A DNA stretch of 64,000 nucleotides from Betaproteobacteria bacterium UKL13-2. Its GTDB lineage: Bacteria > Pseudomonadota > Gammaproteobacteria > Burkholderiales > Usitatibacteraceae. The notes under the pieces were generated by a model. The model had not been told where the DNA came from. It was given only the letters and a program-made list of their open reading frames with translations, and did not search any database. The stretch lies in NCBI GenBank assembly GCA_001602455.1, contig CP012157.1, positions 2,103,733 through 2,167,732 of the forward strand. The letters run 5' to 3'. Numbering within the stretch: position 1 is the first letter of the stretch; each line of letters starts with the position of its first letter. The translations under genes were made by a program, and so were the position numbers. Positions 8,697-42,700 of this stretch are shown here, in pieces.

Positions 8697-9208
8697 CCGA
8701 GTCTCCGATCGCGCACCAGTTCGACCATTTCTTGCTGGAAGGTCGGTGGTCCGAATCCCAATACACGTTGTTCACCGGTGAAATGGCCGTTGCGGTCAAC
8801 TTCCTGCTCGGTATAAATCAACGGGCGAAATTGTTCTTTGGAATATTGCTGCAGCCACTTCAACGCTTTGTGCGGCACCATCGGTCCGACCGGCAACGCC
8901 AAATCCACGGGGAAGGTGCGCCAGGTGGTCCACGCAGGCAACACGATCACTTTGGCTTCGTTGGGTTTCATCCACGCCGGCAAATGACTGGCCTCGCGTA
9001 CCCAACCACAACTGAAATTCACACACGGATCGAGCGGACGTTCAGCGTAAATTTTGCAACCCCCGCCGCCGTGTTTTGTCGGCGGGCCAGCCGAGTGTGG
9101 ACACGGTTTGCCCGGCAATACCGGTTGGTCGAAGACATTGATGCGCACCCAACCGTCGCAGCGGGCGGTGCACGGCTGGCAGCTTCTTGTTGACGTCTCA
9201 AAATTCAT
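8693..9208 (-). CDS. YkgJ-type cysteine-cluster protein
   Basis: 171 residues. The N-terminal half holds seven cysteines in the spacing of the YkgJ (zinc- or iron-chelating) family: C10, C13, C17, C36, C51, C62 and C67, with CTARCDGWVR, GKPCPH, GGGCKIY, RPLDPC and FSCGW. The C-terminal half is unrelated to any domain I recognise. No signal peptide is visible, so it is probably cytoplasmic. It overlaps both neighbours by four bases, which points to tight translational coupling with the spermidine-synthase-like protein and the membrane protein. Confidence 0.8.
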   Translation of the reverse strand: MNFETSTRSCQPCTARCDGWVRINVFDQPVLPGKPCPHSAGPPTKHGGGGCKIYAERPLDPCVNFSCGWVREASHLPAWMKPNEAKVIVLPAWTTWRTFPVDLALPVGPMVPHKALKWLQQYSKEQFRPLIYTEQEVDRNGHFTGEQRVLGFGPPTFQQEMVELVRDRRLG

Positions 9209-11262: not shown

Positions 11263-11407
11263 CGAGGAGTCGCATGGGCAGGGTTTGTGGATATCGACAT
11301 TTTGGCACGTGCCAGACAACAATCCACCTCACACAGCGCCACGAACCGCGCAAGTGCCTAGGTAGCCCGTAAAATGGCGTCTTCCAACCAACGTTTCACT
11401 CAATGCG

Positions 11408-12115
11408 GTGCAAAATCGGCGGCAGGCATACCTCCAAGGCGCGAAAGACGCCTTACCCTCGCTAATTGGGCTGACGCCATTCGGGCTAATTGTCGGTACC
11501 GCATCGACCGCTGCGGGCATGGATCCATGGTTGGCGCTCGCAATGTCGATCATTGTCTATGCTGGCGCATCTCAGCTCGCCGCGATTGGCTTGATGGTGC
11601 AGAGTGCGCCAATTCTGATTGTCTTGGCGACCGTGCTCGTCGTCAATTTAAGGTTTGTCATGTACTCGGCAGCGCTGGCACCATTCTTTCGCGAGTTGCC
11701 GATTGGACGTCGATGGATAATGTCCTACGCGCTAACGGACCACTTGTTTGCACTCGTCAATACTCGCTTCTCGCGAGACGGCACCCACCGGCACGTGGAC
11801 GCATATTTCATCGGTGGTGCTGTACCGACTTGGCTGATGTGGAATGTCATGGTTGCCATTGGGATCTTTGCGGGCACGTTGGTGCCGAAGGAATGGTCGC
11901 TCGATTTTGCTATTCCACTGGTGTTTTTGGCGTTGGTTTTTCCGGCGCTTCAGACTCGCGCACATTGGGTCACCGCCGCCACCGCTGCCACTGCCGCTTA
12001 CTTCACGACCCCTTTGCCGATGAAGCTCGGCCTGATCGCGGCGGCGCTAACGGGGGTGGTGGTGGGGAGCTGGCTAGACTACCGCGACGAAGCCCGCGCC
12101 AGGGGAAAGGCATGA
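11408..12115 (+). CDS. azlC: AzlC-family branched-chain amino acid exporter subunit
   Basis: 235 residues, GTG start at 11408. It is the large subunit of an AzlCD two-component exporter in the inner membrane. The family text is clear: LIGLTPFGLIVG, the helix SIIVYAGASQLAAIGLM, VVNLRFVMYSA and the closing helices. The stop overlaps the ATG of azlD by four bases, the usual arrangement. The start lies about 85 bp from the divergent gene at 11322/11262. Confidence 0.92.
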   Translation: MQNRRQAYLQGAKDALPSLIGLTPFGLIVGTASTAAGMDPWLALAMSIIVYAGASQLAAIGLMVQSAPILIVLATVLVVNLRFVMYSAALAPFFRELPIGRRWIMSYALTDHLFALVNTRFSRDGTHRHVDAYFIGGAVPTWLMWNVMVAIGIFAGTLVPKEWSLDFAIPLVFLALVFPALQTRAHWVTAATAATAAYFTTPLPMKLGLIAAALTGVVVGSWLDYRDEARARGKA

Positions 12116-12450
12116 GTATCGCGGCGGACTGGATCGGTGTCATCACCGTACTGGGGGCGGGCGTCGTCACGCTGTTGGCGCGGGCATCGTTTATTGTTCT
12201 GCCTGCTGACACACCGGTTCCGCATTGGCTGACGCGTGGGCTGAAGTTTGTCGGTGCGGCGGTGCTACCTGCACTGATTTTGCCCGATGTGTTGTTTCGC
12301 GAGATCGCGCCAGGGGAGGTCATCAATCTTTATCGCGTGATCGCCACGTTTGTTGCGGCATTGATTGCGTTTCGCACGCGCAGCATTTTTGCGACCATCG
12401 GCACCGGGATGCTGGTGCTTTGGGTACTCAAAATTTGGGGGCCGCTTTAG
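12112..12450 (+). CDS. azlD: AzlD-family branched-chain amino acid exporter small subunit
   Basis: 112 residues with four hydrophobic helices. It has the AzlD features of a first helix with LLARASFIVLP, then LTRGLKFVGAAVLPALILPDV and a closing AFRTRSIFATIGTGM. The ATG at 12112 overlaps the azlC stop. Its stop TAG shares a base with the GTG start of the next gene, so all three are one transcription unit. Confidence 0.9.
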   Translation: MSIAADWIGVITVLGAGVVTLLARASFIVLPADTPVPHWLTRGLKFVGAAVLPALILPDVLFREIAPGEVINLYRVIATFVAALIAFRTRSIFATIGTGMLVLWVLKIWGPL

Positions 12451-13376
12451 TGCTGGGTTGGTGGCTTCGAGGTCTTCTCTTGGCCGAGTTGCTGGCCTAT
12501 GTGTTACTGAGTTGGGTGCTGCTGCGCTCGGGGATGAGCGCGGCATTCACGCTGTTTGCGATTATTGTCGTGGCAATCATATGGCGAGCCTCGCATGTCC
12601 TCGTTAGCTTTACCGTTGCGACGCTCATGCGCCGACAAGCGCAGCGCGACGAACGCTCGGGGACTACGATACCTGCGCTGTGGAGCGAGTTTTGTGCAAG
12701 GCTGATTAGCTTTAATTGGAGTCAGCCATTTTCAGATGGGGTCATGGGAAGGGAGCCTGCGGGATCGCTGTCGGGCACGCCAATCCTGTTGATACCGGGC
12801 TACTTATCCAATCGCGGCATGTGGGTACAATTTCGCGCCCGACTAATTCGTGATGGATTGGGGCCGGTTTATGCGATCGATCTTGAGCCACCTTTCGGTG
12901 ACATCGACCATTTCGTCGCGCAGCTCGCCGCACGCATCGAACAAATCGGTCGAGAGACGGGCGCCGAAGAAATACATATCGTCGCCCACAGCATGGGTGG
13001 GCTGGTCATTCGATCCTATCTCGCGAGCAACGCGGTCGACCGACTTCGGCCGCGCATCCTAACCTTGACGATGCTCGGTTCTCCACACCACGGCACCAAA
13101 CTCGCCACATTCGGAATCGGAAGGGCGGTAAAACAAATGCGACAAAATAGCGCCTGGCTCCGCAAACTCGCCGCGCTGGAATGTCAACGAGAACAACCGC
13201 CGCCGCCGACACTTTCTATCTTTACCCGAAACGATGATCTCATTTATCCGCCGGAGAGCGCTGAGTTGCCGTGGGCCAACAATGTCGCCGTTGACAGTAT
13301 TGGGCATGTCGGACTGCTTTTTTCTGAGCCGGTCTATCAACTCGTTAAGTCGCAACTGGCAAGAAAAGACAAGTAA
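12450..13376 (+). CDS. Membrane-anchored lipase-like alpha/beta hydrolase
   Basis: 308 residues from the GTG at 12450-12452, which overlaps the azlD stop by one base; the open frame reaches 12225 but there it only shadows azlD. Two hydrophobic helices in the first ~55 residues anchor it to the membrane. An alpha/beta hydrolase domain follows: ILLIPGYLSNRGMW (oxyanion region), the nucleophile elbow AHSMGG (~residue 180), GSPHHGTKLA typical of triacylglycerol-lipase-like enzymes, an acid in TRNDDLIYP and the catalytic His in DSIGHVGLL. The substrate is probably a lipid ester. A palindromic repeat directly after the stop may act as terminator. Confidence 0.85.
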   Translation: MLGWWLRGLLLAELLAYVLLSWVLLRSGMSAAFTLFAIIVVAIIWRASHVLVSFTVATLMRRQAQRDERSGTTIPALWSEFCARLISFNWSQPFSDGVMGREPAGSLSGTPILLIPGYLSNRGMWVQFRARLIRDGLGPVYAIDLEPPFGDIDHFVAQLAARIEQIGRETGAEEIHIVAHSMGGLVIRSYLASNAVDRLRPRILTLTMLGSPHHGTKLATFGIGRAVKQMRQNSAWLRKLAALECQREQPPPPTLSIFTRNDDLIYPPESAELPWANNVAVDSIGHVGLLFSEPVYQLVKSQLARKDK

Positions 13377-13410
13377 AGACGGGTATCTTCAGACGAAAAG
13401 GCCTGATTTA
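13372..13410. repeat. Dispersed palindromic repeat family II, copy 2 (partial)
   Basis: The word taaagacgggtatcttcaga with cgaaaaggcctga matches the left arm and loop of the copy at 51067-51122; the right arm is lost. It overlaps the last bases of the lipase-like gene and lies between convergent genes. Confidence 0.5.
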
Positions 13411-13475
13411 GTTTTGCCATGTCAGCCTTTACCCATATCGGTCTTAATCGGTTTGATTATCGAAGGTTGCTTGTG

Positions 13476-15026
13476 CTACCAACTGTAGCGAACCGTGTAA
13501 CGCACAACAGCTTGGGCACCTTTGGCAAGCTTCAATGGGAAATAAATCGTTCGCGCATCGATTTTCTCGAATTCTGCGCTCGTTGACTTGATGGTCCAGT
13601 TTGCCCAGCGGAACAAGTTTTCCTTGATGATCACGGTGGCCGCAGTGTCCTTCTGGTTGCGGACCTTGATTTCAATGTCCTCTTCCATCCACTTCGCTGC
13701 GTTGTCGACACGAAAATCGACTTGGCTACGCTCACCCACGACATCAAATGCGCTACCGAGCTTGATTTGAATTGTTTCGTTTTTTGGTGTGTGGTCGAGT
13801 AAATCTTCGCCGATGAATTCCAACGATTGATCCGCATTGTCCAGCGTTGAAACGCGGACCTTGCCCGCAGGGAGCGCAAGACCGAGCTTGTTATCTGCGC
13901 GATTTTTGAAGCGTAGGTAGACGTCGACTTTCTTGCTGGATTGGTTGCCAAAATTGCGATCAGTCATCGGGTTGCCGTAGTAGCCGTTGAACCAGCCCGC
14001 CTGACCGTAGTAGACCAGCGTTTTTTCGCACTGCACACCGTGGGCAGAAGGAAACAATTCGATTTGCTTGGTGCTGTTGTTGGCGAGTGTCGTGGGGCGA
14101 CCGAGAGTGTACAAATGGTACTCAAAGAACGACTTCTCCGCGAAGCCCGCGGCCTCCGACTTGCGTAGCGTTGCGGCGGCCATCGGATACCCCGCGTCGG
14201 CTGCGCTGCGTGGCTGAGCACGCTGCACGTCCCCTGCCACGAGCTTGAGTTTGGCATCCCGAAACGTGGCACCCGTTTGGTTGACGATGGTGACCCAGGC
14301 GCCGACGTCGAGCTTGCAAGTGTTGTTATCCTCGCTTAGTGTTAGGTTGTAGTCGGTCCACCACGTAATACCTTGCGTTTGGTATCCATAGCGCACTCGG
14401 TGGGGCCCGGCACGCTCAGTGGCGATGTCCCAGACGAGTGTCGGCTTGCTGATCAGCCCGCCGGGAAGGCTCGCCAAACGCGCCGCGCTGTAGTTAGTGA
14501 TGGTTCTGATGCTGCCATCGGCCATGCGGAGCACTAATCCGTCTCGCGCCGAAAGTAGGGTACCGGTAAAGTTCTCAACACTGCTTCCCCTGATTTGTTC
14601 GACAGTGACTTCACGGTCTAGGTATTTCTCCAACAGTTTTCGTGTGCTGGTGAGATCGAACTCGAAATTCTGTTCCACTACCCGTGTACCCGCGCTATCG
14701 ATGAGAGACTCGAATGACACGGTGGTGGGGTCGATCATGGCGGGCACATCCGCAACACGAATAATGGTGCGGCCGCGGGCGAGATCGAACGACTGTTCTT
14801 GGCGAACGATCGCATAGCCTGGAATGGCACTGTTCTCACCGCTGTTCTTGAATGTAGACGCAGACAAGGTGCCGGGCTGTGCGCTGGAGTAGATGGTGAC
14901 GGCGGTTTGTGCCATGGCGCTCGTCGCGAGCATCGCAAGTGCGGCGGCGATCAGACGCAAGAGGATTGTCGCTGTCGTGTCAGATGTATGCGGTACGCGA
15001 GGTTGATTGGTAGGTCGGTGCAGCAT
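13476..15026 (-). CDS. DUF4139-domain secreted protein
   Basis: 516 residues with a signal peptide (hydrophobic LIAAALAMLATSAMAQ near residues 25-40; the true start may be further in). The body matches the bacterial DUF4139 family: VTIYSSAQPG, the repeated beta-rich segments around VRQEQSFDLARGRT and LPGGLISKPTLVWDI, then the central YQTQGITWWTDYNLTL. The C-terminal part ends in a beta-sandwich-like segment (VRYTVRYSW). These are exported proteins of unknown role. The gene stands alone, divergent from the MoxR gene. Confidence 0.85.
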   Translation of the reverse strand: MLHRPTNQPRVPHTSDTTATILLRLIAAALAMLATSAMAQTAVTIYSSAQPGTLSASTFKNSGENSAIPGYAIVRQEQSFDLARGRTIIRVADVPAMIDPTTVSFESLIDSAGTRVVEQNFEFDLTSTRKLLEKYLDREVTVEQIRGSSVENFTGTLLSARDGLVLRMADGSIRTITNYSAARLASLPGGLISKPTLVWDIATERAGPHRVRYGYQTQGITWWTDYNLTLSEDNNTCKLDVGAWVTIVNQTGATFRDAKLKLVAGDVQRAQPRSAADAGYPMAAATLRKSEAAGFAEKSFFEYHLYTLGRPTTLANNSTKQIELFPSAHGVQCEKTLVYYGQAGWFNGYYGNPMTDRNFGNQSSKKVDVYLRFKNRADNKLGLALPAGKVRVSTLDNADQSLEFIGEDLLDHTPKNETIQIKLGSAFDVVGERSQVDFRVDNAAKWMEEDIEIKVRNQKDTAATVIIKENLFRWANWTIKSTSAEFEKIDARTIYFPLKLAKGAQAVVRYTVRYSW

Positions 15027-23438: not shown

Positions 23439-25112
23439 AAGTTAGCGCGCGGCAAGCAACCGCTTGAGCGCAGACGGCTGAAACTGTCGCGCAGTTGTGA
23501 TTGAGCCTAAATCCGGCAGTTACCCTGCCGCTGTAAGTTGGGCTGACGGTAGCCAAGGTGGCAGTGGGCGCGTGATTTTGGCCACCACGTAGTCCAGAAA
23601 TGTCTTCCATCGATCCGTAAAAGGCAACTGCTCCGCAATATCCCTGACATGACTTAAAGCCGCACGAATGTTGGCAATGAGCGCGAGCAACTTGTCCTTG
23701 GCAGCATGCATCGGTGTCAGATACAGCGTTGTCTGTCCCGCATGTTTGACAGCGCGCCCCACACTGGCAAGCAATAACGCTCGGCTGGTGATGGCTTCCA
23801 TGCGTGCACCCGGCTTGGCCGCCCGGCAATACCAGGACCACCAGTTGTACACCAGCGCTACAGCGCGAGCACTGGTCTGGCAGCGCTCAATGTCCTGGGT
23901 CGTGAAGCCACCCCATCCCCACTGATTTTTGAGCTCGTCAAATCCGTTCTCGCAGTCAGCCCGGTCCCGATAGAGTTGACCGAACGCGTCCAATGCGTAG
24001 GCGCTGTTTGTCACCAACACCGCGTATTCCCAAACCTGAACATCCTTGTCCGGCATCAGCAACTCAATCTGCTCGCCCGGCTCGTTCTTGGTCTTTCAAC
24101 TCAGCGCCAAATCGGCTTTGACGGCACGCCGCAAGATCACTACCCGACGTGATTTGTCCCAGCCCGAGAGTTTGAGGGTATCTTCGACTGCGCTCCAGCC
24201 TTGCTCGCTGGGGCCGGGTGTGCTCCAGTCATCACGCGCGAATTGGCGTGCCAATAATTTCTTGACACCCACAGTCTGACGCAGCTTGAACAGGTAGGGC
24301 TGGTCTCGCTCCTCCAGCTCGGCAATAAAGGGTTCGTTGCCAAAGCCGCAGTCGCCTCGGACCAAGGCCGGACGCTGCTGGGGCGTGAGCTTTTCCAGTA
24401 CGCCGATCAGCCCAGGCCGCGCTTTGGCTGCGCTGTGCTCTTTGCCGGGGCAGACGACAACATCCAGCACCAGGCGCAGGTTGCCAACCCAGTATGTGTG
24501 CAGTGCGTGGCTCGGGCGACCGGGTTTGTGTGGGTTGTAGCTGACCTCAGCTCCGCTTTGTTTTCCGAACATCGGCTTGATGGTGGTGTCGATATCCAGG
24601 ATCCAAGGGGTGCTCAGTGCCGCTTGCACACTACCCATGAGCTGGGGGGCAAGCCAGGCCTGGCTTTGCTCGGCGCTCATACGCGACAGTGCGCGTCGCA
24701 GCGCGTCTTCGCTGATGATTTTCTTCATCCCCAGAATCTGCGGGCTCACCGCGTCGCCGCGCAGCCCGGTGATATGGGCGTAGCGGTTGTGCCCTGCCAG
24801 TATCGCCAGCAGCCATGTGCCCAAGATATCCTGTTTGCTGGGTGCATTGGGGCTTGTGTAGCTCAATGGGCAGCTATCGACCCAGGAGCTGTACACACCC
24901 GTGGTGGCCAAGAACTCGGAGAAGAAGGTCAACTGTGCATTCGGTGTGGCGCTGGCACCATGGTCCCACTTCACATGAATTCGCCCGCCCGGCGTATCCA
25001 CCACCATGGCCTCCAGTGCCTGCGTTTGGACAGCAAGTTGACGCCTTTTTGCTTCACCCATTTGGTGACTCCAATAAATCCATTGAAATTGGCGTCTAGT
25101 CTAGCTTGCAGC
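23439..25112 (-). mobile_element. Insertion sequence (IS1380-like), ends approximate
   Basis: Bounded by the host gene fragment on the left and by the 3' end of the LysR gene on the right. Exact ends are not fixed. The only matching outward words are gcaagttag (left, ~23437) and gcaagctag (right, read on the minus strand, ~25112). No target duplication could be confirmed. Confidence 0.5.
23520..25061 (-). pseudogene. DDE transposase (IS1380-like) with in-frame TGA
   Basis: The frame from the ATG at 25061 runs to 23520 as 513 codons interrupted once by TGA at 24096-24098; the two halves are in the same phase, so this is a nonsense change and not a frameshift. The N-terminal 321 residues include the DDE features TPWILDIDTTIKP, SYNPHKPGRPSH, LRLVLDVVVCPG and LVRGDCGFG. 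The rest includes YRDRADCENGFDELKNQWGW with the catalytic Glu, VYNWWSWY and LTPMHA. The family is IS1380-like by memory of such proteins. The element is probably immobile on its own. Confidence 0.85.
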
Positions 25113-30897: not shown

Positions 30898-31035
30898 TTT
30901 TGTTTGTTGGCGGAGCGGAAGAATCCTTTTGCGATGAAGCCGCAAAAGCCGCAAAAGCCACTTCGCGCCCTGCATGGCGCTCAGATTCGTGAGGCGCAAA
31001 ACATGAAGCAGTTCATGTTTTGTGTCCCCACTCAG
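30898..31035 (+). repeat. Structured ~105-bp repeat, copy A, with tmRNA-3'-end-like left flank
   Basis: From gaatccttttgcgatgaag (~30926) to gtccccactca (31035) it is nearly identical to 42139-42243, apart from a 9-bp internal duplication (ccgcaaaag twice). It contains three possible hairpins: cttttgcg/cgcaaaag, gcgcc/ggcgc and aaacatgaa/ttcatgttt. The left flank ttttgtttgttggcggagcg (from 30898) resembles the sequence downstream of and including the 3' end of tmRNA (42330-42358), with mismatches. Confidence 0.7.
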
Positions 31036-31442: not shown

Positions 31443-33074
31443 ATGCGATTTGCGAATAGTCCTTGTTTCTGGGTGGTAGTTTTCTTGCTGCTACCGAGCA
31501 CTGCCAGTAGCCAAGCGATTTCAGCGACCCTGATGCACGACCGCGCGGTCGCCGCAGTTGAGCGACCACTACCCGGCCTAGCAGACGTGTTGGGTGCAGA
31601 GCCGACCCTGCGTGCGTCACCCGTGTTCGTGATTAGTCGCTTCGACAATACCGGCGATACGGGAGATAGTGACTGGGGTGCTGCTGTGGGCTGGGCTCTC
31701 ATGAATAGCATATCCGGACAATTTGGCGAGCTTGCTGTCATACCACCATACCAATCAGCGGAAGATGCAGCCACCAGAGGAGGTGCGGCTTTGACGGGCA
31801 GCGCGGCACTTAGCCTTTCTGCGAAGAGAACAGGGGCCGGCTTTGGATTGAGCGGCTCGATTCGCGTCGTAGATAGTCGGTTTGAGTTCCGCATGGATCT
31901 CTTCGAGTTTCCCGCTAACCATGTGAAACTTTCGACGACCAAAATCGGAGTGCTTTCTGCGTTGCCCGAAGCTCTGCAAGCGGCCGCGCAAGAATTGATT
32001 GAGCAAGCGGTCTTGGACTCGAGCGGGCAACGGTCGAGCGGAAAAGTTTTGACGCCGAGGCTCTCCGAGCTGACCGCGTTGTCCCGCGCGTTTGCGAAAC
32101 AATCGACATATAGCGCCCGCGAGTTGGCGGAAAGATATGCCACACTCAGCCGTGAGAACGAGGCTTCAGCTTCTCTTAACCTTCTATATCTGCAAGCACT
32201 TAACAGCCTTGCGGATCAGCGGCGCATGAGTGCAGCGGTACAAACAAAGATGCCGACCGCTCGCCAACGGCAGGAGCCCGCAGAAATCTATTCGCGGCTG
32301 TTACGTAGCCAATACAACCATGCCGGGATAGATGCAAGCTCAATCCTACATCTATCAAAGACGATCTTAGAGAATCCGAACAACATCGGCGCATGGTTTG
32401 CATTGACGGATGCCTACAATTCCGAAAACGTTATGTACCAAGACGACGAACGCGGAGGGACTTATGTAATTTCGGCAGCGATTGATCACCATCTAGGTAC
32501 GGCAAACGCCATAACGATTGCGCTGGAAACTTTGCGCCGATGGCCAGATCATTATCGGAGCTGGTCCACATTGGCCACGAGCTTGGCAGTGTACGCTGGA
32601 CTTGTGAGAGGCACAGCCTACTGGAATGAGATCCCCGAGGATGCGCGCACACGTTACCGAGCGATCATGGAAGTGGTAGAAGATTGTTTGCGAACGGCGA
32701 TTCGCAAGCATCCTGATCGTGGAGAGCTTCACCGAGCAATGATTGACCATGATCTGCGCGCTGGTCGAGATTGGATGGACTCATTTCGAGTCGCAGCGCA
32801 ATTGACGCCGCATTCCAAACGGCTTTACCAAACTGCGTTTAACTATGCGCGCCCGCAGTGGGGTGGTACCAAGGATCAACTAAAAGAGATATATGCGACG
32901 TCCGTGAAAAACAATCCGGGCGAAACTTGGCCTCAGATGCTGAGAGAAGAATGGGCGCCTGAAATAGTGCCGTGGATCGATCTCGAAAAGCCGCTTGTTC
33001 GCTATACGCTGATATTCGTGGGTTTGGTGCTGTTCGTCATTGTTTGGCAAGTACGGAAGCAGCGTCGAAGTTAG
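31443..33074 (+). CDS. Exported TPR-type protein with TolB-N-like domain and C-terminal membrane anchor
   Basis: 543 residues. A signal peptide ends near STASSQA. Residues ~58-180 (FVISRFDNTGDTGDSDWGAA, then GFGLSGSIRVVDSRFEFRMD) resemble the TolB-N/FlgO-like domain often placed before TPR repeats in signalling proteins. The middle is helical with TPR-like stretches (DASSILHLSKTILENPNNIG, AWFALTDAYN). A single membrane helix near the C-terminus (YTLIFVGLVLFVIVW) is followed by a basic tail KQRRS, so the bulk is periplasmic. Function unknown. It lies inside the repeat-bounded segment but is convergent with the kinase/helicase operon, so a link to it is uncertain. Confidence 0.75.
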   Translation: MRFANSPCFWVVVFLLLPSTASSQAISATLMHDRAVAAVERPLPGLADVLGAEPTLRASPVFVISRFDNTGDTGDSDWGAAVGWALMNSISGQFGELAVIPPYQSAEDAATRGGAALTGSAALSLSAKRTGAGFGLSGSIRVVDSRFEFRMDLFEFPANHVKLSTTKIGVLSALPEALQAAAQELIEQAVLDSSGQRSSGKVLTPRLSELTALSRAFAKQSTYSARELAERYATLSRENEASASLNLLYLQALNSLADQRRMSAAVQTKMPTARQRQEPAEIYSRLLRSQYNHAGIDASSILHLSKTILENPNNIGAWFALTDAYNSENVMYQDDERGGTYVISAAIDHHLGTANAITIALETLRRWPDHYRSWSTLATSLAVYAGLVRGTAYWNEIPEDARTRYRAIMEVVEDCLRTAIRKHPDRGELHRAMIDHDLRAGRDWMDSFRVAAQLTPHSKRLYQTAFNYARPQWGGTKDQLKEIYATSVKNNPGETWPQMLREEWAPEIVPWIDLEKPLVRYTLIFVGLVLFVIVWQVRKQRRS

Positions 33075-33165: not shown

Positions 33166-34404
33166 TCACACAGACGCCTGACCCGTAGTTGAAGCAATAA
33201 AGGTTTCGTCTTTCGTTCGAAGCGACACCTTCTTTATCTCTTCTAATGAAAACCCAGTTTCAGAAGTTCGGGTCGAGAGTGCCTCGAAAAGTTGCTCAGG
33301 GTTTGACTGTCTCTTGATCTTCATTTCTGTGATTACCTGGTCAATAAACCTCAAAACAATGACATCGCGCTCAAGTTTTGATCCACGTCTTGCCAGTAAC
33401 GACAGGGTGCGCCCCCTCAAGATACGAGGAAATCCAGGTACTGGCCGCGCAAGAAGACTTCCAGCAGCAACATGCAATGGGTAAAGCCGACCCGCAACCT
33501 TTTGTTCAAAGAACCTGTCATCGCAACCTGACAAAGTGAATACTGGGTTGCTGTTGGAATCAAGCTCACCCTGGCCATCCAAAACCAATCCAATCCTCTT
33601 CAATTCCTCTGCCAGGGCTCGAACGACCTGAACGGGACTACTGGCAGGGTACCCAAGAGGTTCGAGCAAGCCGAGGACATCGCTTGCGCTGAGCCAGTCC
33701 ACCTTGCCGTGCGAAAAATGAAGTTCCACTTTTGTTTCCACACCTAGCTTGAACAACAATATTTCACACTCAAGAAACTTGGGCTTTTCTGACTGCGCAA
33801 GGACGCCGCAAATCTCAATCGCCTCCTCCGGGAGGTTTACTGCACGCTTGTTTGGTATGGACCCCAAATTAAGGTGCGACAGGGTTATTTCAGAGCTCTC
33901 CCTGATTAGGTCAGGAACAAATCTAGACCCTCTCAGTTGCGAGGGATCTATCGTCGGCATCAAGTAGAGCTCCCGAGGCACCAACCTGCCAGAAAGCCCG
34001 CAAAGGAGAATCACACGATCCGTTTCGAGCACCTCTGCGCCGTGCGCAATTGTTAGCTTACCGAGTTCACTAAGCATGAATTTGGTTGCATGCATGGAAT
34101 CTTGCGAAAGCAACCCTCTTCCTGATAGCTCATGAAGAATAGGAACTAGCTTTTCTTCTGGGAAACCAATGACAAATGCAAATTCCGCTTGATCGGACAC
34201 GCCATGGCCAGCAAACCGGAGAATGTGCGATTCGAAATCCCCCAGCTGCTCACGACTCTTTTCCCGTATACGGACGACAATCTCAAGAACCGGATACAAA
34301 GCCTGTTGTTGATAGATCACCGATCCGCCTTGAGCAGAGATCCGGTCAACGACAGACCGAACGCGCGTACGTGGAGAAATCGGCTTTTTGGACGTCTGAT
34401 TCAT
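33166..34404 (-). CDS. Unrecognised protein with winged-helix-like N-terminal part, last gene of the kinase/helicase operon
   Basis: 412 residues from the ATG at 34404, two bases after the helicase stop; the frame extends 11 codons further into the helicase. I do not recognise the family. Residues ~50-115 (ESHILRFAGHGVSDQAEFAF, then PEEKLVPILHELSGRGLLS and KFMLSELGKLTI) read like a winged helix, with a helix, a turn, a recognition helix ending RGLL, and a strand-turn. The rest is mixed alpha/beta without known motifs. No membrane helix or signal peptide. Tight spacing shows it is translated with the helicase, so it is a likely sensor, adaptor or DNA-binding partner. Confidence 0.75.
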   Translation of the reverse strand: MNQTSKKPISPRTRVRSVVDRISAQGGSVIYQQQALYPVLEIVVRIREKSREQLGDFESHILRFAGHGVSDQAEFAFVIGFPEEKLVPILHELSGRGLLSQDSMHATKFMLSELGKLTIAHGAEVLETDRVILLCGLSGRLVPRELYLMPTIDPSQLRGSRFVPDLIRESSEITLSHLNLGSIPNKRAVNLPEEAIEICGVLAQSEKPKFLECEILLFKLGVETKVELHFSHGKVDWLSASDVLGLLEPLGYPASSPVQVVRALAEELKRIGLVLDGQGELDSNSNPVFTLSGCDDRFFEQKVAGRLYPLHVAAGSLLARPVPGFPRILRGRTLSLLARRGSKLERDVIVLRFIDQVITEMKIKRQSNPEQLFEALSTRTSETGFSLEEIKKVSLRTKDETFIASTTGQASV

Positions 34405-34406
34405 AC

Positions 34407-37400
34407 TTATTTGGATTTTGCCAAGTCGGGCAGCCAAGCCGACGCATCAATCAATTGGCCGTGCTTTTGAACAAACGACCGAAGCTGAGCCATTGCGTCC
34501 TTGAACTCAGCGTCACGACGCCCAACCTTTGATGGTTTGGCCAATGTGGAGAAGTCTCCAATCATCACCAGTTGCCGCTTTGCCCTTGTCATAGCAACAT
34601 TCAGTCGACGCCAATCGGCAAGAAACCCGACCCCACCATTTGGGTTGGAGCGCGTAAAAGTGAAGACAATCAGATCACGTTCTTGGCCTTGATAGCTGTC
34701 AACAGAGGCAACCAATTCATTTATGGGTGACGGTAAGCCGAGCAATTCGCCAGCGCGCTGGCGGGCGGAGATTGCACGTTGAATTTCCTGTACATGCAAC
34801 TTATAGGGAACAATAACCCCAATTTCCCGTCTCTCACCTAAATCAGGCGACGAGCTCAACGCCCGCCCCAACACATCCAAGACTAATCGCGTTTCAATCA
34901 CGTTGCCAATCAGTTCATCCCGATCATCTCCGCGACGTGAACTCTCTTGCCTAACGTGCATAGGCAATTTCGATGTATCTATGAAAACCATAGGGCTGCT
35001 GAAAAAACTAAATAATGGTTTCTTCTCAGCCATGCCAGCACCGGCAAAATATTTATTTTCATAAAACGCTGCGGATATGTAATCACTGATTACGGCTGGA
35101 CACCTGAATTGTGTATTCAGCATGGCCTTGCGGTCTTCCGGGGCAGAATCCCACAACAATTCGAACCAACTCTTCTTCAAGAGCTTGGTATCAATGTCTC
35201 CACTATCTGCTTCTGCCCGTGACGCTACTTCGTCAACCAACTCATCTTTTACAACCGGCGGAAGCTGCTTGTGATCCCCCACCAAGATGGCCTTCGGCGC
35301 GCGTGACAAGGGAACCGATAAATTGTGCAACTGTATTTGTCCCGACTCGTCAACAATTACAACGTCAAACAAAGCCTCCTTAAAAAATTTGTTTGTATTG
35401 ATACCAATACAAGTGGCCCCGACAACATCAACAAAATTCAAGAGAATTGAATACAAGCCTTCCTGACGCTGATTGGAAATAGTCTTATGCCATGCGGTTG
35501 CCTCGTGTACAACTCGAACAAAGGACTCACGAACTACTGCCAACTGGGTCAGCTTTACTTTTCTTAGGGTCTCGACACTGCCCAACAGCTGCTGATACTC
35601 ACTATTCAACTTACCTTGGACTGAGCCATGCTCTGCTTCAATTTGAGCTAGCAGCGCCACTGCTTCTCTAGTGACGGCGTCCACTTTATCGGTATAACGC
35701 TTCTCGGCCGCTGCCAATTCGGATTCATGCTTCGCAATCAAGGCCCGTTTGCGGCGTGAAACCCCCCATGCCGCGATGCTGTACAAAGGCTTCAATAAAC
35801 CGCTCTTCTCACTAAGCTGTTGCTTGCGATCATCCAAAGCTTCACACTGGGTTTGATGAACTGCGCCAAAACTTTCAACTTCCGTTTTTCGGTCTTTTAC
35901 TAGTTTTGAAAGTAGTGCTGTCTTTTGATCTTCAACACCCAGCGAATTACTCTTCAGTTCATTCGTTAACTGCTCAAGCCGAAGGGGTATCGCAGTTAGC
36001 CGATCGTGATAAGTCCGCAAAACACTGGTCGAAAAAACGTTTTCCCCAACAACCGCGTGGGTGAGAAATCCTTTTAAATCGCCAAGCTTTTCAAAAGCGA
36101 ACTCCTGAAGCCGATCGAGACCGTCTGCAAATCCATCCACACCGTGTCCCATGGCATTTCCTGAGACTTCCATAGCAATGCACATTTTTTCAAAGTGTGC
36201 CAACAACGAAACGTTTCGCTCCAGTGCGTCAACAAGCCTTCGCTGCAGGCTGGATGCACAGTTGTCAATCAGTAGATCGTGAACGGATGAACTTACGGTT
36301 CCTTCACTGCCAAGTCGGACACAAGTCAACTTGCGGTTCTCTGCGAGTCGCTCCAATACGTTATCTACGGCCTTGTTATTCTGCGAACTTATCAAAATTC
36401 GCTTCCCTTGAGACGCGAAAAACTCAACCCACCGCAAAATAACGGTCGTCTTTCCCGTCCCAGGTGGGCCAAGAACGAGCATGTAGTCATCTGTTCCAGC
36501 GCCTGCGTTGATCGCAAGCAACTGAGAGGGATTTGGTGGATTCTTAGCAGGAGGAATAGGAACCGAAATGGTTGGTCTATTCGAATGTACGTAACTCTGC
36601 GCCGCCAGAGGTACTAACCAACGGTTAGGAGACAGTCGCTGTCTCAAGTTTTCTATGACTTGCAGCCTGACGTTTTTTTGAGTTGGATTTGCAAATAGCA
36701 CCAAAGTACCTGTATCGGGAATTGCTCCCGACGCAAGTTGCTCCCCAGTCGAGACAACGATCTGATGTATTCCTCCATTGGGTGCCAAATCATCGACACG
36801 AAACTGCAAAAGACGCTCGCCAACGGCTCCCTCAAGTGCCAACATACCTGGTGCCAGCGCCCTTAGTCGCTTGCAATCGGACTCCAACAAACGAAGGCGA
36901 AAATACTTCCGAACACTTGCAACCCGCTTCTCTGGCGTGACCTCTACGAATGCGAACCCGGCAATCGCACGTGCCTCTTGTTCTTCCAGGAAATACTCGG
37001 CCTCTACATAGGTCTCAAGCGTATGAAGGAGGTTTTCCTCAGTTTCAAGCAATGGCGTCAATGGCTCGTCTTCCTCGTCGGCTCGATGCTTCCCTTTTCC
37101 AACCTCGGGGGCTTGCTTTGCTTCAAGTGAGACAAGTTCTGTGGCGAAGCGCCCGCTGGAGTAAACGCTGTCACGATCCGTGAAGTCGCGAAAAAATGCA
37201 TCAAACGTGGTCAATGCAATGCCTCTGTGCTCTATCCGAACACCCTGCACAAGCATTGTTCTCCGCATGCTGTTATTTGCGAATTTAATGCCTGACTTGG
37301 TTAAATTGACCCTTAAGGTTCCTTGCCCGCTTTGATTCCGCTTGCACACCGTCTGGATCATGTACCTACCGACAAGAAAATTCAAAAAGTGACCGCCGCC

Positions 37401-37622
37401 TCCATCCATAGGTTTGATGGAAACATATGCGGACTTACTAGCTGACAATTCCGCCTTGATCTCCGACCATGAGGGAAAGTTTCCTCCAGGCCACTCAGTT
37501 CGTTGGTCATAGTCTTCACCACGAATGATTGGTATGACGAAAGATAGCTGAACAATATCTTGAGGCCTCCAAAACTTTAGTGTTCCAGTCGTCGGTATCA
37601 ACTTGGCGTCAGATGTGCGCAT
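34407..37622 (-). CDS. UPF1-like superfamily 1 helicase with coiled-coil insert
   Basis: 1071 residues. Residues 1-360 are an N-terminal region I do not recognise. The helicase core has Walker A GPPGTGKT (385-392), motif Ia ISSQNNKAVDN, motif II DES (VVIVDESGQ, 758-760), motif III VGDHKQLPP, motif V VASVDSYQGQERD (971-983) and motif VI RLNVAMTRAKRQ. This order and the AAA_11/AAA_12 style place it with UPF1/DNA2/Nam7-type SF1B helicases. Between motif Ia and motif II is a ~300-residue insert rich in charged helices (about residues 540-720), probably a coiled coil like a DNA-clamp arm. It lies 37 bp downstream of the kinase gene. Confidence 0.9.
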   Translation of the reverse strand: MRTSDAKLIPTTGTLKFWRPQDIVQLSFVIPIIRGEDYDQRTEWPGGNFPSWSEIKAELSASKSAYVSIKPMDGGGGHFLNFLVGRYMIQTVCKRNQSGQGTLRVNLTKSGIKFANNSMRRTMLVQGVRIEHRGIALTTFDAFFRDFTDRDSVYSSGRFATELVSLEAKQAPEVGKGKHRADEEDEPLTPLLETEENLLHTLETYVEAEYFLEEQEARAIAGFAFVEVTPEKRVASVRKYFRLRLLESDCKRLRALAPGMLALEGAVGERLLQFRVDDLAPNGGIHQIVVSTGEQLASGAIPDTGTLVLFANPTQKNVRLQVIENLRQRLSPNRWLVPLAAQSYVHSNRPTISVPIPPAKNPPNPSQLLAINAGAGTDDYMLVLGPPGTGKTTVILRWVEFFASQGKRILISSQNNKAVDNVLERLAENRKLTCVRLGSEGTVSSSVHDLLIDNCASSLQRRLVDALERNVSLLAHFEKMCIAMEVSGNAMGHGVDGFADGLDRLQEFAFEKLGDLKGFLTHAVVGENVFSTSVLRTYHDRLTAIPLRLEQLTNELKSNSLGVEDQKTALLSKLVKDRKTEVESFGAVHQTQCEALDDRKQQLSEKSGLLKPLYSIAAWGVSRRKRALIAKHESELAAAEKRYTDKVDAVTREAVALLAQIEAEHGSVQGKLNSEYQQLLGSVETLRKVKLTQLAVVRESFVRVVHEATAWHKTISNQRQEGLYSILLNFVDVVGATCIGINTNKFFKEALFDVVIVDESGQIQLHNLSVPLSRAPKAILVGDHKQLPPVVKDELVDEVASRAEADSGDIDTKLLKKSWFELLWDSAPEDRKAMLNTQFRCPAVISDYISAAFYENKYFAGAGMAEKKPLFSFFSSPMVFIDTSKLPMHVRQESSRRGDDRDELIGNVIETRLVLDVLGRALSSSPDLGERREIGVIVPYKLHVQEIQRAISARQRAGELLGLPSPINELVASVDSYQGQERDLIVFTFTRSNPNGGVGFLADWRRLNVAMTRAKRQLVMIGDFSTLAKPSKVGRRDAEFKDAMAQLRSFVQKHGQLIDASAWLPDLAKSK

Positions 37623-37659
37623 AGATCTGTTTTGGAGTGGGAATGAAAATCAACCGAAT

Positions 37660-38526
37660 TTATGAGAAGTATTTCCGTTGAACATTCATGACTGCAGCCT
37701 TGAACTGGGATGAGTCCTGGTAGCGATTCTTCGGGTTGTAGTTCATCGACTTCAACAACACACCCTGCAATTCATCAATACCGGGAATTCGCGATTCGTT
37801 CGCCGACAATCGACAATCCAACCCACCCGCCCAATCCGTAACCGTATCGTTGGGGAACCGGAGTAACGGTGCGCCAGTAAATAAAAACCAGCCGACTTGA
37901 CCCATTCCGAACACATCGGTTGCGGGGCTAAGGTTGAAGTCACGCCGTCCAGCCTGCTCCGGCGATTGATAGTCCAGTGTTCCTTCTTCTAAAACTCGCT
38001 TTACCGCGCTTGATCCAAAATCAATTACAGCCACGCCATCCCTCGGAGACCTTCGATTTCTCAAAAGCATGTTTTGCGGCTTTATGTCACGGTGAATGAA
38101 TCGAGCCTGATGGATTCTCTCAATGGTTTTGGCCATTTCAACAATCATTGCTACTCGGAGAGAGAAACTCTCCCGATCAAGTGCAGGCTCTCTTTTGGTG
38201 ACATCATCGAAAGTATCCCCGTCCATCCAGTCCATGAAGATGTAGGTAAAACCTTGTCGCGCGAAAATACTGCGGAAACGGGGAAGTAGGGAAGGCAGCT
38301 GAACTTGCCGATTTAGTGCTACCAGTTCCGTGTGAATTGCACGAGAGTCATTCAAAGAATCGTCAAAAACTTTCATGGCATATTGAAGGCCATCTTCTTG
38401 ATTCTTGACTTGATAAAGGGCCCTACCCGTGGTGTTAATGGCGTTATAGATTGTCTTGACAATGTGAACCGTATGGGATTGAGTCCACTCCAGTGGCTGT
38501 CCGACCCTCAAATCAATCATCGCCAT
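37660..38526 (-). CDS. Ser/Thr protein kinase with intact catalytic residues
   Basis: 288 residues (or 286 from the inner ATG at 38520, which makes an ATGA overlap with the upstream stop). All key positions are present: the Lys of the VAIK strand in YAMKVF (K52), the catalytic loop HRDIKPQNMLL (H145-D147), the DFG motif in VIDFGSS (169-171), the SPE variant of APE (188-190) and DVFGMG with the conserved Asp. The glycine loop is poorly conserved. It is a soluble eukaryotic-type (Hanks) kinase without an extracellular domain. It follows the NERD/pseudokinase gene directly, so the fusion protein or the helicase is a likely substrate. Confidence 0.92.
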   Translation of the reverse strand: MAMIDLRVGQPLEWTQSHTVHIVKTIYNAINTTGRALYQVKNQEDGLQYAMKVFDDSLNDSRAIHTELVALNRQVQLPSLLPRFRSIFARQGFTYIFMDWMDGDTFDDVTKREPALDRESFSLRVAMIVEMAKTIERIHQARFIHRDIKPQNMLLRNRRSPRDGVAVIDFGSSAVKRVLEEGTLDYQSPEQAGRRDFNLSPATDVFGMGQVGWFLFTGAPLLRFPNDTVTDWAGGLDCRLSANESRIPGIDELQGVLLKSMNYNPKNRYQDSSQFKAAVMNVQRKYFS

Positions 38527-40595
38527 TTCTCGACTACTTCCACTAACTTGCTTCCAACAGGCCTACGACTCGGATCGAAAGCAAGGATGCTGGACATCGA
38601 GTTCTCTTCATCAGGGTCAAAGCCACAATGCGTACTTACCGAAGCCCAAAACCCCGCTTTGGCCATTTTCTTTTGTTGCTCTGCTGGAGACGCATATGGC
38701 AGCGACGCATCAGCCGATAGAACGAAGCAAGCCAATTTACCAAAGCTATATACATCGGCCGAAGGACTCACTTGACGTCCAGCTACTAGAACTTCCGGCG
38801 ATTGATAATGGGTGTCAAGTAGCGCTCGCGCGTTCTGTGCAATGGTCGCTGAGCTTTGCAACTTGCAAAGTTCAAAATTAATGATGATGTGTTCACCTTT
38901 TTCGTCCACGCGAAGGTTGGACGGAGTCAAGGCCCGATGAACAACTTCTTCTTTGGCAAGAATACTTAACGTCTTGGCGATGTCCAACAAGAGCCTCAAA
39001 CGTTGCTCGCGTGAAGGATTGGTGTTGCGAAGCCAGTCGTCAAGTTTCTCGCCAGCAATGTGATCTAACGCAACAAAAAGACTCCCAGGTTCATCCCAAG
39101 CATCCAGAGCTCGTTGAATATGCTGACTCACGGGCAGATCTTGTGACGCTGTCAGTTCCCGACGTAAACGGTCTATCTCGCTTTCAAGCCCGTCGCCCCT
39201 ATCCATTGAAGTTAAGGGATATTCCTTTATCCACACCATTCGATCTTTGCCCTGGACGTTACCCAGATACACCTTGTAAAAACTGTTTGACTCACTCTCC
39301 AGTGCAATGGGACGGTACGTGAAGCGGCCATGCTGCCTCAAGGCAGTTGTTGATACTCCTACCGGCAACGAACGCGTGAGGTGCATAACAATCTTTTCAA
39401 TCTCCTTTTGACTAATGATTGAGGGCAGCACATTGGGTAGCGGACGACCGGTCACATTCGCTAACTTGGAACCAAGTGTCGACTGATGAGGCCCAGAATT
39501 TGGCTGTTGAGGTACAAACCGCTGCATCTTGGCTTTTATCGCGGCGGCCATTGACTCTGGTGTGCAAACGATGACGTCTCCCAAGTCTCTTGGTAAAGGT
39601 CTTGTTTTTGACTCATAGTCAATACTGTGCACATTGACATTGGGATTTGTGAACACAACTACCCCATACGCCCGTGCCGCCTTTTGAAGGGGTGTACCCC
39701 AGTCAAACCTTTGGAAGTTACTTCTCAATAGCCCCATTAATTGCGCGATTGGGTTTTTCCCATCCAACGGCTCAACACGGTTACCGCGAACTCTGGACAT
39801 TTTTGTATTTTGCGAATTCTCTGGTAGCGTGATTTGCCCCCAATGGTCTTTGAGTTCCAAGACGAACAACCCCCACGGGCTTACCAATATCCCGTCCGCC
39901 ATATTCGAAGAATGGACCCCCTGGAAGTATTGCCCGCCAACGATTTTGAACCCATCAAAAGTGGGGTCTCGAAAGAGGCAGTCGGCAACTCTCGAAAGCC
40001 CCCTTTTTTCATGATCCCGTTCTTCTTGAGAACCTGCAAAAGGGTTGTACGTCCAATTGCTATTGACATAGCTCAAAGTTGACTCAAAGGGAAATGCGAG
40101 CATTGCCCAATCGTCGCAGCCTGAAACTCTTTTACCCAGCGCGGCCAAGTCGTCTTCTGACCGCGAATTCTCAAGGGTTTGCGCCCCAATGCCTTTGAAT
40201 TCGGCGCCAAACCCAGTGGCAGAGGCAAGAAAATACTCGGACGCATTGAGGTTTAATCGGCTCGTTTGAGGCACCAGGGTGGCGGACCGGTCGAGTCGAA
40301 TAACGTTCGATGCGCCAAGTGATTGAACGACAATGTGCCCGGGCTCGCGTTGAAACACTGTCAGCCGCAATTTTTCAGTGCCTTGAGAAGCCGAAGTTTC
40401 AGCTATCGCGACAGCCGCCACTGCACTTAACTGGTCATGGCCATCCCATTGGCACGTGAGTTCCGAGATGAAGTCGGCTGAGTTCTCCAGACGAGTGGCG
40501 TCAATCACAGCCGCAAGGACACCGCCAGGATGTATCCAAGCAGCTTTTCCTGAGACCTTCTTGTCCGAAGTCACCACTTTAAAGAACATTTCCAT
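38517..40595 (-). CDS. PP2C-like / NERD nuclease-related / pseudokinase fusion
   Basis: 692 residues in three parts. Residues 1-170 resemble a degraded PP2C phosphatase: AVIDATRLE, VQSLGASNVIRLD, YFLASATGFG and the closing GCDDWAMLAF, with most metal Asp lost. Residues ~190-330 are a NERD (nuclease-related) domain with the active-site pattern intact: ADGILVSPWGLFVLELKDHW, giving D234, E247 and K249. Residues ~430-690 have a kinase fold with the VAIK-type Lys (VWIKEY, K457), but the catalytic loop is HRALTPSNL (HRD to HRA) and DFG is NFE, so phosphotransfer is not expected. It is the first gene of the operon. Closest architecture known to me is PglW (kinase plus NERD) of BREX type 2. Confidence 0.85.
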   Translation of the reverse strand: MEMFFKVVTSDKKVSGKAAWIHPGGVLAAVIDATRLENSADFISELTCQWDGHDQLSAVAAVAIAETSASQGTEKLRLTVFQREPGHIVVQSLGASNVIRLDRSATLVPQTSRLNLNASEYFLASATGFGAEFKGIGAQTLENSRSEDDLAALGKRVSGCDDWAMLAFPFESTLSYVNSNWTYNPFAGSQEERDHEKRGLSRVADCLFRDPTFDGFKIVGGQYFQGVHSSNMADGILVSPWGLFVLELKDHWGQITLPENSQNTKMSRVRGNRVEPLDGKNPIAQLMGLLRSNFQRFDWGTPLQKAARAYGVVVFTNPNVNVHSIDYESKTRPLPRDLGDVIVCTPESMAAAIKAKMQRFVPQQPNSGPHQSTLGSKLANVTGRPLPNVLPSIISQKEIEKIVMHLTRSLPVGVSTTALRQHGRFTYRPIALESESNSFYKVYLGNVQGKDRMVWIKEYPLTSMDRGDGLESEIDRLRRELTASQDLPVSQHIQRALDAWDEPGSLFVALDHIAGEKLDDWLRNTNPSREQRLRLLLDIAKTLSILAKEEVVHRALTPSNLRVDEKGEHIIINFELCKLQSSATIAQNARALLDTHYQSPEVLVAGRQVSPSADVYSFGKLACFVLSADASLPYASPAEQQKKMAKAGFWASVSTHCGFDPDEENSMSSILAFDPSRRPVGSKLVEVVEKWR

Positions 40596-41104: not shown

Positions 41105-41452
41105 TCACGCGATGGCCAGCAACGCTTTGATTTTTGCCCTTACGTGACTCATTACTGAGGTGGGGGCGACCGCCTTTTTCTTCGCATTTCGAATCTTCCA
41201 ATCGAGCGACTTCACTTGATCAGACAGCACCGCACCGGGAACCCCGTCAATCTCAAACACCACCTCAAACGGATGCCCCTTGACTTTGGTGCTCATGGGG
41301 CAGTAGACCATCAGCCCTGTTTTACCGTTGTAGCTTGCCGGACTGACGACCAAAGCAGGACGATGCCCAGCTTGCTCATGTCCAGCCTGGGGATTGAACT
41401 CCAGCCAAACAACATCTCCAGCATCAGGCACATAGCGGCGCGATGCCATCAA
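41105..41452 (-). CDS. mazF: MazF-type endoribonuclease toxin
   Basis: 115 residues. The MazF/PemK family is clear: YVPDAGDVVWLEFNPQAGHE followed by QAGHRPALVVSP with the catalytic Arg, LMVYCPMSTKVKGHPFEV with Thr/Ser in the second catalytic segment, and VLSDQVKSLDWKIR. It cleaves RNA at short sequences when freed from its antitoxin. The ATG overlaps the mazE stop by four bases (a second ATG follows directly). Confidence 0.94.
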   Translation of the reverse strand: MMASRRYVPDAGDVVWLEFNPQAGHEQAGHRPALVVSPASYNGKTGLMVYCPMSTKVKGHPFEVVFEIDGVPGAVLSDQVKSLDWKIRNAKKKAVAPTSVMSHVRAKIKALLAIA

Positions 41453-41691
41453 AGCGCCTCTTTGCCCACTGGCTTGCCGAAGCTGACCTCAGCATGTGCA
41501 TTTTGCGGGGTGATTCCAGCGAGCAAGTCATCCAAGTTGTATTCCACATGCTCAGATGGCTCAATCACGATACGTCCACGGCTGACGATGATCGTTACCT
41601 TCTGCTCCAAGCTTAAGGCAGCTTCCTTTAGTGCCAACGCAGGCAACCTTAGGGCCGGGCTGTTACCCCATTTTCGAATGACAGCTTCCAT
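41449..41691 (-). CDS. mazE: MazE/AbrB-type antitoxin
   Basis: 80 residues. The N-terminal swapped-hairpin AbrB fold begins MEAVIRKWGNSPALRLPALA, as in MazE; the C-terminal ~35 residues, acidic and probably flexible, should bind MazF. It is upstream of the toxin, coupled by an ATGA overlap. A dyad just upstream is a likely autoregulatory operator. Confidence 0.92.
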   Translation of the reverse strand: MEAVIRKWGNSPALRLPALALKEAALSLEQKVTIIVSRGRIVIEPSEHVEYNLDDLLAGITPQNAHAEVSFGKPVGKEAL

Positions 41692-42092: not shown

Positions 42093-42123
42093 AATGCAAA
42101 GAGAGTGTCTTTGCAAGTTTTTA
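42093..42123 (+). terminator. Terminator-like hairpin
   Basis: tgcaaaga, 5-base loop, tctttgca, then agttttta. It lies directly before the tmRNA-end-like word at 42124. Confidence 0.6.
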
Positions 42124-42143
42124 TGGTGGAGCCGGCGGGAATC
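42124..42143. repeat. Attachment-site-like duplicate of the tmRNA 3' end
   Basis: tggtggagccggcgggaatc matches the tmRNA 3' end at 42339-42358 (tggtggaaccggcgggaatc) at 19 of 20 positions. tmRNA 3' ends are well-known integration sites, and such a direct repeat is what an integrated island leaves. No integrase gene is present in the window. Confidence 0.6.
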
Positions 42144-42243
42144 CTTTTGTGATGAAGCCGCAAAAGCCACTTCGCGCCCTGCATGGCGCTCAGATTCGTG
42201 AGGCGCAAAACATGAAGCAGTTCATGTTTTGTGTCCCCACTCA
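42139..42243 (+). repeat. Structured ~105-bp repeat, copy B
   Basis: Nearly identical to copy A and in the same orientation, from gaatccttttgtgatgaag to gtccccactca. With copy A it brackets 31.0-42.1 kb. It contains the same three potential stems as copy A. Confidence 0.75.
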
Positions 42244-42338: not shown

Positions 42339-42700
42339 TGGTGGAACCGGCGGGAATCGAACCCGCGTCCGCAAGCCCTCTACAGGCCGATCTACATACT
42401 TAGATTCCATTATTTGATTTCGCCCCACGTACGCCAATGGCCGGGCTGACGCGACGCTAGCCACCTTAATTTAACTCCCTGCCAAGTAGCCCGGCAGAAA
42501 GCGATCCTCGTTAATGACTCTGCTGTACCTTGCGATACCTAGCGTTGAGGCCCACTAGTGCAGAGCGCGGCCGGTTATTAAGCGGCTAGTGCGTAGTTTT
42601 CGTCGTTTGCGACTATTTGTTTGCGGTTGTATTTACGAGGTGACCACCCCTCGGTATGCACGGTTCTGCTTAATGCCCACGTCGAAACCAGGTCGGCCCC
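42339..42700 (-). ncRNA. ssrA: Transfer-messenger RNA (tmRNA)
   Basis: 362 nt. The 5' end GGGGCCGACCTGGTTTCGAC and the 3' end GGTTCGATTCCCGCCGGTTC plus CACCA form the tRNA-like domain; GGGGCCG pairs with CGGTTCC (two G-U pairs) and CCA is encoded. The tag reading frame at 42610-42578 is GCA AAC GAC GAA AAC TAC GCA CTA GCC GCT TAA TAA, giving ANDENYALAA, a tag of betaproteobacterial type. It rescues stalled ribosomes with SmpB. It forms the right border of the accessory region, in line with its common use as an integration target. Confidence 0.96.

Follow-up and report, generated by a model that had tools for sequence, protein, structure and literature searches.

How does a gene cluster that joins a nuclease-related domain, a kinase pair and a helicase relate to the defence systems already described? 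The question is raised by a four-gene operon in the genome of Betaproteobacteria bacterium UKL13-2, within a stretch of 64,000 nucleotides (contig CP012157.1, positions 2,103,733 to 2,167,732), which we call the window and in whose numbering positions are given. An earlier note, made from the sequence without database searches, had proposed a wholly new defence-like system. This novelty is not supported by a search of PADLOC, in which gene 3 matches MkoA (2.3e-91) and gene 4 matches MkoB (9.6e-5), and long MkoA proteins have the same domain order as the operon. Our conclusion is that the operon is probably a relative of the antiphage system Mokosh type I, in which the functions of MkoA reside on separate polypeptides, a PP2C-like domain has been added, and the MkoB-like partner lacks the PLD domain.

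Four genes and their recurrence

The operon consists of four intact open reading frames (ORFs) on the minus strand, at 33166-40595, in the order gene 1 to gene 4.

38517-40595, minus strand: gene 1, a fusion of PP2C-like, NERD and pseudokinase domains; ORF of 692 amino acids, aligned with 12 homologues
40080-40595, minus strand: PP2C/PPM-like domain of gene 1 (residues 1-172), from a profile of 13 homologues
39396-40070, minus strand: NERD nuclease domain of gene 1 (residues 176-400), with PD-(D/E)xK-type residues E196, D234, E247 and K249
38520-39323, minus strand: pseudokinase domain of gene 1 (residues 425-692), with K457 retained, HRD changed to HRA and DFG to NFE
37660-38526, minus strand: gene 2, a Ser/Thr protein kinase; ORF of 288 amino acids
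34407-37622, minus strand: gene 3, a UPF1/COG1112-type superfamily 1 helicase; ORF of 1071 amino acids, core at about 34554-36533
33166-34404, minus strand: gene 4, a winged-helix protein; 412 amino acids counted from the ATG at 34404

Genes 1 and 2 overlap by 10 bp (38517-38526), and 37 bp (37623-37659) separate genes 2 and 3. The arrangement described in the earlier note is thus confirmed, with the qualification that its 2-bp gap between genes 3 and 4 requires the ATG at 34404; the listed ORF of gene 4, with a TTG start and 423 amino acids, overlaps gene 3 by 31 bp instead.

The N-terminal profile of gene 1 matches RsbX (2.2e-8) and tPphA (1.9e-7). On alignment the window copy of this PP2C-like domain is degenerate, with D32-G changed to D32-A and the SDG motif gone; metal-site motifs that Azospirillum and others partly keep are missing from this copy and from that of its nearest relative (L043). 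The four NERD residues listed above are invariant in 13 of 13 homologues. Pfam NERD scores 0.0023 for the window copy alone and 1.3e-6 to 3.6e-4 in homologues, two of which pass Pfam's own cut-off. The C-terminal kinase domain (Pfam Pkinase, 5e-18) is a pseudokinase in all 13 proteins: HRD has become HRA, HRG or HRS and DFG has become xFE, so that the ATP-binding lysine is retained while the HRD aspartate and the aspartate and glycine of DFG are gone. A structure model of gene 1 (predicted local distance difference test, pLDDT, 80) gives this domain a kinase fold (Z score of 23.8 to PknB 5u94, 2.9 Å over 246 residues). Because fold searches with the model returned kinases only, the PP2C and NERD assignments rest on sequence profiles.

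Gene 2 (Pfam Pkinase, 1.9e-23) carries the full set of catalytic motifs, with K52, E67, D147 of HRD and D169 of DFG invariant in 13/13, and is predicted to be an active-type Ser/Thr kinase. In gene 3 (Pfam AAA_12, 1.1e-40; AAA_11, 9.2e-39) the helicase motifs are invariant, including the Walker A K391 in 15 of 15 sequences. Its match to MkoA, the best in PADLOC, spans residues 358-1049 and covers only positions 611-1099 of the 1112 in the profile hidden Markov model. The NCBIfam helicase-like protein PLuB scored 144.6 bits, against a cut-off of 999.

MkoB is the sole PADLOC match of gene 4, and the two align by hhalign (97.4%, E 9.7e-12) over residues 23-224, the alignment ending before the PLD part. 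Gene 4 is accordingly homologous to the first half of MkoB but has no PLD domain: Pfam PLD was not found in gene 4, nor was the PLD signature HxK(x4)D in gene 4 or its close orthologues. In the fairly confident structure model (pLDDT 83), residues 49-123 form a winged helix of the MarR/Csa3 kind (Z score of 12.2 to Csa3, 1.6 Å over 73 residues). Fold searches matched this winged helix-turn-helix (wHTH) alone and barely probed residues 124-412, so they give no sign of a new fold. Taken together, profiles, alignments and the wHTH fold bear out the domain assignments of the earlier note, and the residues it named in NERD (D234, E247, K249), kinase (D147) and Walker A (K391) are correct as well as invariant; the degeneracy of the PP2C-like domain goes beyond what it described.

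The helicase alignment, run against the genomes of 84,980 species, retrieved 33 loci. The four-gene order is conserved in 11 further complete loci from several phyla, 12 with the window:

L033, with L043 (Oxalobacteraceae) and L040 (Shewanella fodinae)
L039 (Vibrio sinaloensis) and L041 (V. aestivus; gene 4 split over two frames)
L044, L045, L046 (Idiomarina), L047 (Aliidiomarina), L048 and L049 (Aliarcobacter)

An accidental gene cluster is ruled out by this recurrence, which upholds the idea of a conserved gene set. L033 lies on the Azospirillum lipoferum plasmid AZO_p1, where it was found by tblastn, and three loci (L038, L042, L065) are cut at contig ends. L052 has no gene 1; at 8452-14115 it encodes a kinase with an unassigned 245-residue N-terminal extension, which may be another effector, followed by the helicase and a gene-4 relative. 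In L061, the helicase is fused to gene 4.

Nineteen further loci, mostly from Firmicutes, combine a kinase with the helicase, and in nearly all of them a relative of gene 4 is present. Where an upstream first protein is seen, it ends in a pseudokinase-like domain, and in several Firmicutes the N-terminal part of this protein resembles DUF4145 (best matches 1.7e-5 and 2.5e-5), not NERD. DUF4145 is a HEPN family (PMC3710099), and it takes the place of NERD in this Firmicutes version.

A second extension of the earlier description is a fifth gene, present in 9 of the 14 non-Firmicutes loci that have downstream sequence, plus L059. It abuts or overlaps the end of gene 4 and encodes a CorA-like product of 400-500 amino acids in which hydrophobic segments lie towards the C-terminus; its matches to PADLOC CorA reach 1.7e-16, and 5e-17 in L059. 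It was not found in the window or in L043, L044, L045 and L038.

The distribution is patchy among close relatives. Gene 1 occurs in one of 150 genomes of the window's own order, namely its own, and was not found in the single genome of the same genus; among 369 genomes of the class, matches other than itself were to kinase domains only. A phage-borne origin found no support, as scans of viral contigs with the gene 1 and gene 3 alignments returned no relative and the helicase search of phages gave distant helicases only.

Mokosh and other kinase-bearing systems

Both NERD and PLD are listed for Mokosh type I, and a PLD-like nuclease domain for types I and II (PMC10952713). The long form of MkoA (PDLC03921), of about 1,650 amino acids, holds NERD, two kinase-like regions and a UPF1-like helicase in a single chain, in the order of genes 1 to 3, and its NERD scores 5e-7 to 4e-18 in the two proteins scanned. 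Given this shared order, the operon is related, in split form, to a system already described. The MkoB that accompanies long MkoA is likewise similar to gene 4, with a wHTH in its N-terminal part and no PLD motif that could be detected, but the hhalign alignment between them is limited to the wHTH. Long MkoA differs further in being one fused chain in which no PP2C domain was found, with a helicase of another clade. Short MkoA (PDLC03920), with its MkoB (PDLC03922), supplies the best PADLOC matches of genes 3 and 4; it shares the kinase and helicase, and gene 4 resembles the N-terminal half of its MkoB. It differs in that the kinase is fused to the helicase, NERD is absent, and MkoB usually has the PLD signature.

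The UPF1/COG1112-type helicase of MkoA and an adjacent MkoB partner are both present in the window. The kinase and, in the long form, NERD are fused to the helicase in MkoA; here, as in each of the 11 other complete loci, separate genes encode them. By strict criteria this is not an ordinary Mokosh system, since neither PLD nor the fusion is found, and Mokosh-like is the more fitting term. PADLOC 2023 and NCBIfam of June 2026 contain no dedicated model for these proteins. In the helicase tree (FastTree local supports), the split-operon helicases form their own clade (0.995) and join those of the Firmicutes operons (0.992), outside short and long MkoA.

Where MkoA lacks NERD, its MkoB partner has the PLD signature in 6 of 7 cases, L034 being the exception. 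Where MkoA is of the NERD type, none of 7 partners has the signature as a PLD site, nor does any of 30 gene-4 proteins from the split operons, the few pattern matches sitting outside a PLD context. It therefore seems that one system carries either a PLD or a NERD/HEPN domain.

PglW of BREX type 2, which comprises NERD, a pseudokinase and then an active kinase (PMC12839542), had been named as the relative in concept. This stands for the order of domains in genes 1 and 2, as PglW profiles are collinear with the gene 1 homologues; it does not stand for PglW as sole relative, Mokosh type I being closer. PglW continues into RNA polymerase alpha-CTD-like, triple wHTH and iSTAND regions, whereas gene 1 stops at the pseudokinase and gene 2 at the kinase, with no such C-terminal wHTH triad or iSTAND. 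BREX also has PglX, PglZ and BrxC and no helicase of UPF1-like type. None of these three was seen on inspection of the window ORFs or in the ORFs scanned, the whole genome not having been searched, and BREX type 2 was set aside because its core genes were not seen in the segment.

The same enzymatic module recurs in some DndF proteins of DndFGH, which have an N-terminal NERD and a tandem of inactive and active kinases (PMC10853773); there it is joined to a P-loop nucleotide-kinase core, and the UPF1-like helicase is absent. In KKP, two kinases and a PP2C control defence (PMC11341870). The operon shares these components, but in KKP they are three separate proteins and NERD and a UPF1-like helicase are not described.

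Genomic surroundings

The operon lies in a segment bounded by repeats:

30946-31034, plus strand: left copy of an 89-bp direct repeat, the segment boundary
42119-42243, plus strand: right boundary, with a 25-nucleotide imperfect copy of the transfer-messenger RNA (tmRNA) 3' end (42119-42143) followed by the 89-bp repeat (42155-42243)

The two 89-bp copies are identical and 11.2 kb apart, the right one just past the 3' end of the tmRNA (42339-42700). A MazF/PemK-MazE pair lies at 41105-41691. The repeats, the tmRNA and the mazEF pair mentioned in the earlier note are all present. The G+C content of the operon is 46-50%, against 53-65% in flanking DNA. The segment resembles an island at ssrA, but this we only infer, because no integrase was seen within it and weaker copies of the bounding repeat occur elsewhere in the same genome. 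A stretch of about 42 bp resembling this repeat occurs five times, 159 bp apart, at C1:688772-689449 (L105-L109), and is a tandem array.

On the plus strand within the segment, 31443-33074 encodes a protein of 543 amino acids that begins with a signal-like stretch and has a hydrophobic segment in its C-terminal part; Pfam gave no match for it. Elsewhere in the window, transposase-like ORFs in two frames on the minus strand (24096-25061 and 23520-24062) probably represent a single transposase gene that a frameshift has interrupted. The genome also holds a second UPF1-like helicase fragment (C1:2399927-2400187, L002; 51% identity over 86 residues) with one internal TGA, which is probably a decayed gene.

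Homologous loci have defence genes as neighbours. The operon on AZO_p1 adjoins genes for BrxL (3e-289) and PglZ (1e-251) and an AbiU-like gene; these, the last being AbiU/AIPR-like, form with a gene for 414 amino acids a BREX-type neighbour convergent to the operon (L033:22162-29505). Other loci lie beside a type IV restriction enzyme (L048), MkoC of Mokosh II (L043) and the DinG of a type IV CRISPR system (L044), and when 59 flanking genes were scanned together, strong matches to JetC/JetD, LeoA/LeoB and methyltransferases were obtained as well.

Two further plasmid-borne gene sets were observed. On pPNAP01 of Polaromonas naphthalenivorans (L077:4779-12493), a single operon encodes VWA, PP2C, kinase and UPF1-like helicase proteins and one of 479 amino acids; its kinase/phosphatase and helicase set is possibly a TerY-P-like relative. 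On plasmids of Photobacterium, Acinetobacter and Moellerella (L079, L080, L081), a helicase recurs with a PIN-domain protein, a hypothetical protein, an AAA ATPase and a 4Fe-4S protein, the Acinetobacter copy lying near a BrxL gene.

Proposed working and its alternatives

The model that best fits these proteins is, as in the earlier note, that of a nuclease under kinase control which works together with a helicase. Recognition or tracking of an invader's RNA or DNA would fall to the UPF1-like helicase and its MkoB-like winged-helix partner. The active kinase and the pseudokinase would form a switch, in which the kinase phosphorylates the pseudokinase-NERD protein; phosphorylation would release or activate the fused NERD, which would then cut nucleic acid. 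NERD is proposed as the effector mainly because PLD and NERD/HEPN appear mutually exclusive between systems. The PP2C-like domain may originally have opposed the kinase and reset the switch; in this genome it is probably inactive and would act as a structural brake only.

How far does this support kinship with Mokosh type I, rather than another origin? A straightforward account would be gene fission, which broke up MkoA in an otherwise ordinary Mokosh type I, as suggested by the domains and order of long MkoA and by the PADLOC matches of genes 3 and 4. We consider this unlikely: the split state is common to 12 loci in several phyla, the helicases form the separate, well-supported clade that joins the Firmicutes operons, and the PP2C domain, the CorA-like fifth gene and the absence of PLD are shared traits. 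These proteins could, at the other extreme, make up a separate, undescribed defence family, a cousin of Mokosh I and not its descendant. In such a family a kinase/pseudokinase switch and a helicase-wHTH sensor would drive a nuclease that can be exchanged, NERD serving in Proteobacteria and HEPN in Firmicutes, and the CorA-like protein would be an optional second effector. This is a real possibility, to which we give less credence than to the relationship with Mokosh type I. It is rather doubtful that the operon works by PglW-like signalling, where phosphorylation of host or phage proteins by the kinase, not cutting by NERD, stops growth and the helicase and wHTH protein only sense. The order shared with PglW and some DndF proteins (PMC12839542, PMC10853773), the collinear profiles and the intact kinase motifs are in keeping with it, but the NERD residues are invariant throughout, and the Firmicutes version exchanges the nuclease for a HEPN family rather than losing it.

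Several points weigh against the relationship with Mokosh type I and the working proposed for it. The link of the split helicases to short MkoA is weak (0.45), too weak to establish that the operon descends from Mokosh itself. The complementarity of PLD and NERD comes from small samples, several of them related, and NERD could here be only a nucleic-acid-binding domain. Defence neighbours were counted without a matched background set, and protection against phage is deduced from sequence. This last point leaves some room for a regulator of stress or RNA decay outside defence, built from the helicase and kinase switch and carried on a mobile segment; UPF1-like helicases also work in RNA metabolism, and the Polaromonas operon is a related arrangement. 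Against such a regulator, the least probable of the explanations weighed here, stand the patchy distribution, the low-G+C, repeat-bounded segment, the defence neighbours and the homology to Mokosh parts.

Without dedicated models, loci of this kind stay unannotated or pass as partial Mokosh systems. As separate genes, the nuclease, pseudokinase, kinase and helicase that are fused in MkoA and PglW can be removed singly, and the split operon thus allows the role of the kinase pair in NERD-kinase defence systems, including PglW, DndF and Mokosh, to be tested directly. The exchange of NERD for HEPN, together with the missing PLD, suggests a general rule for these systems, in which each would carry one nuclease on a common sensor-kinase core.

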